Below are positions 28,502 to 64,000 of a DNA stretch of 64,000 nt, one piece after another. Numbering within the stretch: position 1 is the first letter of the stretch; the number at the start of each line of letters is the position of its first letter. Location of the stretch: positions 4,600,296 to 4,664,295 of the forward strand of contig NZ_KI421517.1 of the NCBI RefSeq assembly GCF_000473365.1. The letters are read 5' to 3'. Under the pieces are notes generated by a model. The model saw only the letters and a program-made list of their open reading frames with translations. It was not told the DNA's origin and made no database searches. Source of the DNA: Adhaeribacter aquaticus DSM 16391. Lineage in GTDB: Bacteria; Bacteroidota; Bacteroidia; Cytophagales; Hymenobacteraceae. The position numbers and the translations under genes are program-made.

Positions 28502-30256
28502 TTACCAGCGTCTGGATTTTTCTTTCCGACGATCACCACCTCTGTCTCCGCCACGGTCACGATCACCTCCACGGTCTCCACCTCTATCACGATCGCCGCC
28601 GCCGCCGAAGCGTCTCTTAGGTTTATCGTCAAATCTGCCTCTGGATTCTCTATCGCCAGAACCAGACCCTCCGCCTTCACCTGCCGTTTTCTTCTGGGCT
28701 TTTTCAAAGCTAACAGGTTTGCCTAACAATGTAGTGCGGCCAATTTTATCTATTACCTCAGATAAATATTCTGTAGAAACTTCAACAAAACTGAATTTAT
28801 CGTACAAATCTATGTCTCCAATTTTGCTGGTAGGCACAGATGTATTTTCGGTTATCGCTTCAATGATATCTTTGGGATGCACCCGGTCTTTTTTACCAAT
28901 GGTAACAAATAAACGGCTAAAACCTTCGCGTGGGCCTTTCATCTCTTCGGATGCAGCTTGTGCTTTGGCTTCTTTCATGCTTATTTTCAACAAAGCCGCA
29001 GCCACTTCCAACGAAGTAAAATCTTCGGCTAATAAGCGTTCGATGCGGGAAATTTGTTTTTCCAGTTTTCCTTTGGCAATAACCTCTTTAATCTGATCAA
29101 GGAATAAATTGGTTTTAATCTCCGCAACATCTTCGTAGCTAGGTACCGCCGCCAGTTTTATTTTGGCGTTGGTGTAGCGCATAATATCTTTTAATTTATA
29201 GATATCGCGACCCGATACAAACGAAAACGCTCTACCTGATTTACCAGCGCGGCCGGTACGACCAATACGGTGTACATAAGCTTCTTCATCCTGTGGTAAA
29301 TCATAGTTAAATACTGCTTCCAGATCTTCAACGTCAATACCACGGGCAGCTACATCGGTTGCAACCAAAAACTCCAACGTGCCGGCTTTAAATTTAGCCA
29401 TTACATTGCTCCGTTGCGTCTGGTTCATATCACCGTGTAAACCATCGGCAAAGTAACCTCTGGCTTGCAAATTAGCTACCAGTTCATCAACCATCCGTTT
29501 GGTATTACAGAAAACAATCATCGATTTCAGGTTGTACATGTCAATAATCCGTGACAGCACATCCATTTTCATGTTGTTACGAACCTCGTAATACGATTGC
29601 TCAATGTTAGAAACTGTTAAGGTCTGATGTACAACTTTAACAATCTGCGGATTTGTCTGATATTTTTTAGTCAGTTCCATGATTGGTTTGCTCATGGTAG
29701 CCGAGAAGAAAATAGTCTGACGTTCAGTTGGTATCTTGGTTAATACAAATTCAATATCCTCTCTAAAGCCCATGTCTAACATTTCATCGGCTTCATCCAG
29801 GATTATTTTTTTAACGGAGTCTAATTGTAAAGTTCCGCGCTCAATATGGTCCATTACCCGGCCCGGCGTACCAATTACAATTTGCACTCCACTTTTCAGG
29901 GCCCGTAACTGCCGGTCATAAGACTGACCACCGTAAATAGGAACTACCTGAATATCTCTTTTATATTTTATTAATTTACTTATTTCTTCGGAAACCTGAA
30001 CCGCTAATTCGCGGGTTGGGCATAATATTAATGCCTGTACACTGCGGTTTTTCGGGTCAATGCTTTCAATGGTAGGAATACCAAATGCAGCTGTTTTACC
30101 TGTTCCGGTTTGAGCTTGGCCAATCACGTCGCGGCCTTCTAAAATATACGGAATCGCCTCCGTTTGTATCGGTGATGCTTCTTCGAATCCCATATCAGCT
30201 ATAGCACGCTGCATTTCCTGGGACAATGGAAGCTCATCAAATCTTAATTTGTTCAT
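28502..30256 (-). CDS. DEAD-box RNA helicase (DeaD/CshA-like) with Arg/Gly/Asp tail
   Basis: The 584-residue protein has all helicase motifs in order: Q motif SPIQTEAIPYILEGRD, AQTGTGKT, PTRELAVQ, DEAD, SAT, ATDVAARGIDV and HRIGRTGRAG. A DbpA-type RNA-binding domain follows (about 455-530, RLFVTIGKKDRVHPKDII), then a basic tail of GGDRDRG repeats ending RRKEKSRRW. It remodels structured RNA in ribosome assembly, mRNA decay or cold growth. A perfect -7 element on its strand 169 bases upstream implies a leader of about 160 bases. Confidence 0.95.
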   Translation of the reverse strand: MNKLRFDELPLSQEMQRAIADMGFEEASPIQTEAIPYILEGRDVIGQAQTGTGKTAAFGIPTIESIDPKNRSVQALILCPTRELAVQVSEEISKLIKYKRDIQVVPIYGGQSYDRQLRALKSGVQIVIGTPGRVMDHIERGTLQLDSVKKIILDEADEMLDMGFREDIEFVLTKIPTERQTIFFSATMSKPIMELTKKYQTNPQIVKVVHQTLTVSNIEQSYYEVRNNMKMDVLSRIIDMYNLKSMIVFCNTKRMVDELVANLQARGYFADGLHGDMNQTQRSNVMAKFKAGTLEFLVATDVAARGIDVEDLEAVFNYDLPQDEEAYVHRIGRTGRAGKSGRAFSFVSGRDIYKLKDIMRYTNAKIKLAAVPSYEDVAEIKTNLFLDQIKEVIAKGKLEKQISRIERLLAEDFTSLEVAAALLKISMKEAKAQAASEEMKGPREGFSRLFVTIGKKDRVHPKDIIEAITENTSVPTSKIGDIDLYDKFSFVEVSTEYLSEVIDKIGRTTLLGKPVSFEKAQKKTAGEGGGSGSGDRESRGRFDDKPKRRFGGGGDRDRGGDRGGDRDRGGDRGGDRRKEKSRRW

Positions 30257-61811: not shown

Positions 61812-62650
61812 ATGGATTTAAAAGTATATCCGGGTACCCCCTACCCCTTGGGTGCCACCTGGGATGGTAATGGCGTAAACTTTGCCCTTTTTGCCCAAAA
61901 TGCTACAGATGTAGATTTATGCCTTTTCAACTCAACTGAAGACCAGACAGAAACCCATCGTATTAAAATGTTTGAGCGGTCACACCAAATCTGGCATGCG
62001 TACCTCCCGGACATAAAACCCGGTCAATTATATGGTTACCGGGTTCATGGCACTTTTGATCCTAATAATGGCCACCGCTTTAATCCCAATAAACTTTTGC
62101 TAGACCCATATGCCAAGGCTATATCGGGTACTATCAAATGGCATAATTCCCTATTTGGTTACCAAATGGGTCATGAAGACGCTGATTTAAGCTTTAATGA
62201 CGAAGATAGTGCTCCGTATATTCCAAAAGCTGTAGTAATAGATCCCAACTTTGATTGGGAAGGTGACACAGCTCCGAAATACCCCTACTTCCAATCCATT
62301 ATTTACGAAACCCATGTAAAAGGCTTTACAAAAATGCATCCCGAAATTCCGGAAGAGATACGGGGAACCTATGCCGCATTAGCTCATCCGGTTACTATTA
62401 AGTACCTGAAAGAATTAGGCATTACAGCCATTGAACTAATGCCAGTGCATCACTTTGTGAACGATAGTATTCTGGAAGATAAAGGGCTTGCCAACTACTG
62501 GGGGTATAATACCATTGGCTTTTTTGCTCCGGATGTACGGTATTCCAGCAGTGGCGCTTTAGGCCAGCAGGTCATTGAATTTAAAAATATGGTAAAAGAG
62601 TTTCATAAAGCCGGAATAGAAGTAATTCTGGATGTAGTATATAACCATAC

Positions 62651-63105
62651 CGGCGAAGGAAACGAATTAGGACCCACTCTTTCCTTTAAAGGAATAGACA
62701 ATGCCTCTTACTACCGGCGAAGGAAACGAATTAGGACCCACTCTTTCCTTTAAAGGAATAGACAATGCCTCTTACTACCGGCGAAGGAAACGAATTAGGA
62801 CCCACTCTTTCCTTTAAAGGAATAGACAATGCCTCTTACTACCGGCGAAGGAAACGAATTAGGACCCACTCTTTCCTTTAAAGGAATAGACAATGCCTCT
62901 TACTACCGGCGAAGGAAACGAATTAGGACCCACTCTTTCCTTTAAAGGAATAGACAATGCCTCTTACTACCGGCGAAGGAAACGAATTAGGACCCACTCT
63001 TTCCTTTAAAGGAATAGACAATGCCTCTTACTACCGGCGAAGGAAACGAATTAGGACCCACTCTTTCCTTTAAAGGAATAGACAATGCCTCTTACTACCG
63101 GCTAA
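62651..63105 (+). repeat. Seven perfect tandem copies of a 64-bp unit inside glgX
   Basis: Copies start at 62651, 62715, 62779, 62843, 62907, 62971 and 63035. The last is followed at 63099 by the first four bases of the unit (CGGC) and then unique sequence. The array is bounded by a shared TACCGGC, which would have been the original microhomology. Each unit holds the 14-bp palindrome TTCCTTTAAAGGAA. I saw no differences between copies. 64 is not a multiple of three, but six extra copies (384 bp) are. Confidence 0.97.
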
Positions 63106-64000
63106 TGGAAGACAACCAGCGTTACTACATGGATTATACCGGTACCGGTAATACCCTTAACGCAAATCTGCCTAACGTACTCCGTCTGATAATGGACAGC
63201 CTGCGTTACTGGATTCTGGAAATGCACGTAGATGGGTTCCGTTTCGATTTAGCTTCAACACTGGCTCGGGAACTCCACGAAGTAGATCGGCTAAGTTCCT
63301 TCTTTGATATTATCCACCAGGACCCAATTATTTCGCAAGTAAAATTAATAGCTGAACCTTGGGATATTGGTGAAGGAGGCTATATGGTGGGCGGCTTTCC
63401 TCCGGGCTGGACGGAATGGAACGGTAAATACCGGGATTGTATGCGCGACTACTGGCGTGGCGAAGACAGTATGTTAGCTGAATTTGCGCAACGATTTACG
63501 GGTTCTTCTGATCTTTATTTAGACGATTACCGCCGGCCAACTGCCAGTATCAACTTCATTACCGCCCACGATGGTTTTACCATGCACGATTTAGTATCGT
63601 ACAATGAGAAGCACAACGAAGCCAACGGCGAAAATAACAATGATGGCGAAAGCCACAACCGTTCCTGGAACTGTGGAGCAGAAGGACCAACCGATGATCC
63701 GGAAATAAACGCTTTGCGTGACCGCCAAAAACGTAATCTTTTAACTACTTTATTCCTCTCGCAAGGTGTTCCGATGTTGGTGGCCGGCGATGAGATAAGC
63801 CGTACCCAGGGCGGTAATAACAATGCTTATTGCCAGGATAATGAAATTTCGTGGCTAAACTGGGATAAAGCTGATACGGGATTATTAGAATTTACCCGAA
63901 AGTTAATCCACTTGCGGAAAGATCACCCGGTTTTCCGGCGGCGGCGGTGGTTCCAAGGTCAACCTATTCATGGCCTAGAAACCGAAGATATTGCCTGGTT
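63021..64000 (+). CDS. Possible restart reading frame for the GlgX C-terminal part (open at window end)
   Basis: An ATG at 63021, in the tail of repeat copy 6, is in frame with copy 7 and all downstream glgX sequence. It starts [17 protein letters not shown] and continues through GH13 regions II-IV to the window edge. It lacks CBM48 and region I, so it would not be active alone. Each copy has the same ATG, but only the one in copy 6 (and formally those in frame register with it) reads on into the unique sequence. Whether it is translated is unknown; no ribosome-binding site is evident. Confidence 0.4.

Follow-up and report, generated by a model that had tools for sequence, protein, structure and literature searches.

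A seven-copy, 64-bp tandem array interrupts glgX/treX in Adhaeribacter aquaticus and is probably a recent, revertible null allele

A profile search of the Adhaeribacter aquaticus genome yielded only one glgX gene above the family cut-off, and that gene holds a tandem array of seven identical 64-bp units followed by 7 bp (TACCGGC). The array lies on the forward strand at positions 62648 to 63102 of the window, that is, the whole 64,000-nucleotide stretch of contig NZ_KI421517.1 that was analyzed. To judge from its reading frames, the debranching enzyme of the sequenced isolate is probably split and inactive. The array most probably goes back to a recent spontaneous duplication that was seeded by 7-bp repeats and then amplified, either as an ordinary accident or as a loss of function selected in the laboratory or in the niche; it would then be a revertible null allele and not an evolved contingency locus. 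As it stands, an ordinary null allele is the most likely description.

The period check found an exact period of 64 over 455 bp, seven units plus the terminal 7 bp, with zero differences between copies. Tandem Repeats Finder gave 62648 to 63110, 7.2 copies and a score of 910; the three remaining rows for the window scored 51, 83, and 67. An earlier sequence-only reading of this DNA had also described seven identical 64-bp copies, and its interval of 62651 to 63105 is the same array offset by 3. TACCGGC stands at both edges as the left (62648 to 62654) and right (63096 to 63102) copies of a 7-bp direct repeat on the forward strand, the left copy being the putative ancestral seed. Where one copy meets the next in the assembly, ...TCTTAC is joined to TACCGGCGAAGG. 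Each unit also carries a strandless 14-bp perfect palindrome, TTCCTTTAAAGGAA, at 62681 to 62694 in copy 1, which occurs in none of the 104 single-copy relatives described below. The genome's own record is identical to the array region (100% over 1999 bases), but since both come from one assembly the match confirms nothing independently. The sole other match of the 2-kb region within the genome was 36 bp at 89% identity, about 0.9 kb downstream, within treZ, which likewise belongs to GH13.

Since 64 is three times 21 plus one, copies 2 and 3 are out of frame. Both shifted frames of the unit contain stops, TAA at offset 39 and TAG at offsets 20 and 47 (zero-based), and direct translation of the native frame through the array encountered six in-frame stops. 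One tool column gives this glgX frame as 844 amino acids, stop-free in matches; direct translation shows the stops and is the version used here. Among modeled copy numbers of 1 to 10, only one copy leaves the frame uninterrupted, and every number from 2 to 10 breaks glgX. The six extra copies amount to 384 bp, or 128 codons, and the frames to the left and right of the array agree. This agreement has no effect on function because the stops lie inside the array; 4 or 7 copies preserve the outer frame, yet the internal stops remain. The frame shift of +1 per copy, the stops in both shifted frames, the matching outer frames, and the splitting of the protein at any copy number above one had all been proposed from the sequence beforehand, and each was borne out by translation or by the model.

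The gene is open from the ATG at 61812, stays in frame across copy 1, and terminates in copy 2. The N-terminal part (61812 to 62753, forward strand) is an open reading frame of 313 amino acids that comprises CBM48 and the first portion of the GH13 catalytic domain, with CBM_48 and Alpha-amylase matches, and its last 11 residues are out of frame. The C-terminal part, of 438 amino acids, begins at an ATG at 63021 in copy 6, occupies 63021 to 64000 of the forward strand, and remains open past the window end to the natural end of the gene (L013:1817-3133). No single uninterrupted frame encodes GlgX/TreX, and the length of TIGR02100 (688 positions) is matched by the two pieces, the N-terminal part aligning to positions 2 to 295 (E value, 8.2e-144) and the C-terminal part to positions 270 to 687 (E value, 4.6e-186). 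The parts score 480.2 and 619.9 bits, respectively, each below the cut-off of 640.9, and both together with their in-frame neighbors score 1116.3 bits, above it. Among solved structures, the top three matches of each part are GlgX or glycogen debranching enzymes (7u39, 2vnc, and 2wsk). No second break was seen in glgX outside the array. A second glgX acting as a backup was rejected, as the genome has no other above the cut-off. A viral origin was also set aside, the GlgX N-terminal part being without a relative in the viral collection. The promoter and terminator scan showed no excess over shuffled sequences.

The glgX stop overlaps the treZ start as TAATG, and downstream, beyond the window end, treZ is followed by a treY-malQ fusion (1408 amino acids, L013:5258-9484). 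The profile scores of this TreXYZ unit are 701.2 bits for TreZ (cut-off, 538.8), 906.6 for TreY (498.65), and 386.2 for MalQ (205.65). Within the fetched flanks, a same-strand treZ follows glgX in 13 of 22 relatives, the 22 being the 26 other genomes with a GlgX match minus 4 more distant ones, and in all seven congeners. Between treZ and treY the sequence shows an inverted repeat accompanied by a T run; it is absent from the terminator scan list. Because glgX overlaps treZ and adjoins treY-malQ, it belongs to a glycogen-to-trehalose route, as its treX, no less than to glycogen metabolism. Judged by gene order, the broken step is debranching in the TreX-TreY-TreZ route as well as in glycogen use. 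According to a review, the choice between the names GlgX and TreX follows the operon and the enzymatic properties are considered identical, with the bifunctional Sulfolobus TreX as an exception (PMC11046441). The A. aquaticus gene resembles the known TreX-TreY-TreZ/GlgX systems in its sequence family (TIGR02100), its treZ and treY-malQ neighbors, and the TAATG overlap, and differs from them in being split by an array.

For comparison with relatives, 108 loci were fetched, 28 from the family profile search and the best 80 of 589. The segment motif was present once each in 104 of them, in keeping with the sequence-only expectation that the family needs one copy; the four loci outside the motif (L038, L039, L040, and L042, with matches of 501.9 to 726.9 bits) were left out of the copy count. 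All seven congener genomes searched gave a full-length match with no internal stop. The best relative of the GlgX N-terminal part among the best 80 of 589 loci, a set from which very near records may be omitted, was from Pontibacter, at 79%. An exact 7-bp repeat at a spacing of 64 occurs in 8 of the 104 single-copy loci and is TACCGGC itself in 6, so that single-copy relatives, too, carry the short direct repeat that bounds the ancestral segment. The TACCGGC copies fall in the conserved residues H-T-G-E and Y-Y-R. Short end repeats are typical of reversible intragenic tandem duplications, although they are not required. As in such duplications, the glgX array consists of direct tandem copies that break an open reading frame and are absent from relatives. 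One further locus, L041 on contig 14 of genome G030, is a second, partial glgX match (model positions 211 to 687) whose conserved YY motif, within the segment, contains a TAG; that genome also has an unbroken glgX. One genus of the family, g5, is nearly without the glgX motif (G119 alone has it), and seven of seven g5 genomes in the profile search had no GlgX match at 1e-60; the enzyme therefore seems dispensable within the family.

The segment motif was found in 75 of 204 family genomes and in 20 of 395 sampled genomes of the phylum, and in each survey tandem copies were present in one, the A. aquaticus genome itself. No recurrence at the same site was seen by exact pattern in the other genomes of either set. 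Because both surveys relied on the exact DNA pattern of one segment, they would overlook duplications in other parts of glgX and any in a glgX whose sequence departs from that pattern (as in G034). Two motif hits in G030 lie on different contigs. The repeat tract is thus confined to 1 of the 75 motif-bearing family genomes and to none of the 7 congeners, the other species being without it. Within the A. aquaticus genome, a 1.28-Mb sample (25%), combining the window with the stretch that follows it and with 60 pieces 20 kb in length, was scanned for exact self-matches with periods of 7 to 1000 that were 14 bp or longer and extended over 0.4 or more of the period. The longest other such match was 59 bp, versus 391 bp for the array, and no further exact array of more than 2.6 copies at periods of 7 to 1000 was present in the sample, which therefore gives no sign of a genome-wide tendency. 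The array is not due to chance. Short repeats of 75 or 33 bp, with 1.4 to 1.8 exact copies, were seen at L161:17327-17460, L152:13340-13386, and L156:15588-15647. The window also has an imperfect 30-bp repeat at 28529 to 28594, where a protein in which DEAD-box helicase motifs were recognized by eye has a tail rich in Gly, Arg, and Asp.

The age of the break was approached through the divergence of glgX relative to that of treZ, the latter compared over the 434 to 492 residues present in the fetched loci of the congeners. The ratio ranged from 0.79 to 1.33 (mean, 0.98) in the 7 pairs that include the A. aquaticus genome and from 0.49 to 1.24 (mean, 0.79) in the 21 pairs among the others. A long-standing pseudogene was rejected on this comparison, in which the ratio overlaps the range of the relatives with a somewhat higher mean. 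Any sign of relaxed constraint in the ratio is weak at best, which would suit a recent break; the higher mean (0.98 versus 0.79) would also be compatible with constraint having been relaxed for longer. Identical copies and an otherwise unbroken gene make it probable that the allele is young.

The genome, 5.17 Mb in total, is assembled in 4 pieces; the scaffold that contains the window measures 4.83 Mb and may have been built on short reads, in which case seven copies is an estimate. Runs of exactly 100 N occur three times in the 1.28-Mb sample (L133:13780-13879, L161:2534-2633, and L171:4917-5016), and 5 of their 6 flanks have similar sequence (75 to 95%) elsewhere in it. The right flank of the L161 run and the left flank of the L171 run are about 91% alike on opposite strands, which points to a break at the corresponding edge of two related regions that look phage-like by eye. 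The genome has one 16S gene; four near-complete congeners have 2 to 3, and two draft congeners have 0 and 1. Except for the array, the sample contains no repeat pairs of at least 200 bp at 97% identity or more. The 100-N runs, the lone 16S gene, and the missing long repeat pairs would suit a short-read scaffold unable to span 455 bp of identical repeats, and could be taken to mean that the genome is single-copy and that the assembler or a gap filler created the array. We consider this unlikely. In a single-copy gene the two edges have only 7 bp in common, an overlap too short for an assembler to join them; a junction between copies should therefore have been present in the reads, and two or more copies are likely real. 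The exact count of seven is uncertain, given that the assembly contains 100-N gaps and that its rRNA operons are perhaps collapsed.

Two further readings, and a combination of them, would give the array a function. The sequence-only reading saw in it the form of an on/off switch for glycogen debranching. In an evolved switch, selection would keep the copy number variable; a population would then hold some cells that make GlgX/TreX, and perhaps TreZ, beside others that do not, and would alternate between glycogen storage and trehalose making. Identical copies can recombine, every copy number above one interrupts the frame, and the TAATG overlap with treZ means that a single array could affect two steps. 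The contraction to one copy that the same reading envisaged is mechanically plausible, since arrays of identical direct repeats are able to contract. The switch itself was not supported, and no positive evidence for an evolved one was found: the array occurs in 1 of 75 motif-bearing genomes of the family and 1 of 20 of the phylum, the outer frame is irrelevant to function, all other genomes searched lack the array, the seven congeners included, and the sampled quarter of its own genome has no second array of this kind. The treZ/treY neighborhood past the window end, the 7-bp seed repeat, and the stop-restart layout are additions to what that reading described. The repeat consists of ordinary conserved codons, a single ON state among many copy numbers is a poor layout for frequent return, and glgX encodes a storage enzyme, whereas known phase-variable genes mostly concern the cell surface or restriction. 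An evolved switch is accordingly highly improbable. The other reading, which we rate as very unlikely, is that translation stops at the TAA in copy 2 (62751 to 62753, forward strand), restarts at an ATG 11 bases on (62765 to 62767), and steps through the array, so that N- and C-terminal parts sharing 23 repeat-encoded residues assemble into a wholly or partly working enzyme while treZ is still translated. In the model, the ATG after the copy 2 stop reads copy 3 in the native frame and the walk steps through every second copy; whichever copy number from 1 to 10 is modeled, the chain from each stop to the next ATG arrives at the native glgX 3' end, the last piece being 438 amino acids at odd copy numbers above one and 410 amino acids, started at a TAATG, at even ones. 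An AAGGA between stop and ATG, ending 7 bases upstream of the repeat ATG, is a candidate aid to restarting, but Bacteroidota rely little on Shine-Dalgarno pairing, and in a loose test the ATG is present in 45 of the 104 single-copy relatives, the purine stretch in 52, and both in 23. Both lie in conserved codons (K-G-I-D-N-A), and therefore no adaptation is needed to explain them. The cut, moreover, falls within the GH13 catalytic domain: judging by sequence motifs, region I lies in the N-terminal part, whereas the C-terminal part has the catalytic Asp and Glu. The stop-restart layout could keep treZ translated, and reinitiation could leave some enzyme activity; a two-piece enzyme is less likely. 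A copy-number ladder in treX would combine the two readings, termination and restart at each second copy setting the amount of the C-terminal part and TreZ, and rare contraction to one copy restoring the whole enzyme. Its chances appear slight; if true, one repeat would both tune and switch glycogen-to-trehalose flow in a subpopulation.

The reading we prefer, an amplified spontaneous duplication, was in part the alternative already offered from the sequence, a recent null allele, which fits better than a switch for an array unique among the genomes searched. In the order of events that we infer, an ancestral single-copy glgX/treX carried two TACCGGC repeats 64 bp apart, and misalignment between them would have produced a spontaneous tandem duplication. 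A pair of 64-bp copies, once formed, is expected to gain and lose units through recombination or slippage. Unequal recombination or replication slippage would then have raised two copies to several identical ones, leaving the isolate with a split debranching enzyme and an array physically able to contract. Seven copies exceed a simple duplication and might reflect selection, either on copy number or in favor of a stable OFF state.

Spontaneous sequence duplications in pneumococcal capsule genes (the type 3 locus, cap8E, and tts) were reportedly described by Waite et al. in 2001 and 2003. The simple-sequence-repeat phase variation of Haemophilus, Neisseria, and Campylobacter likewise depends on repeats whose length is not a multiple of three and whose copy number sets the frame, but it uses short units and has several ON copy numbers, whereas the glgX array has a 64-bp unit, stops in both shifted frames, and one ON state. 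By analogy, the glgX array is of the same kind as the pneumococcal intragenic duplications, in which a duplication inside an open reading frame also breaks the gene. A tandem duplication within wchA abolished the capsule in serotype 8 (PMC4022640), capsule gene duplications are stated to be reversible (PMC4243769), and the work of Waite et al. is also referenced (PMC13410964 and PMC8406281). The glgX array differs in its larger number of copies, in affecting a glycogen/trehalose enzyme, and in its host, a member of the Bacteroidota; its predicted reversibility comes from sequence. Among the titles retrieved for glgX and tandem repeats, none concerned an array in glgX.

The array thus offers a clean natural case of an apparently microhomology-seeded duplication, amplified within a metabolic gene, whose seed is still visible in single-copy relatives. 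If its copy number varied in culture, reversible intragenic duplication, described for capsule genes, would be extended to genes of storage and osmolyte metabolism.
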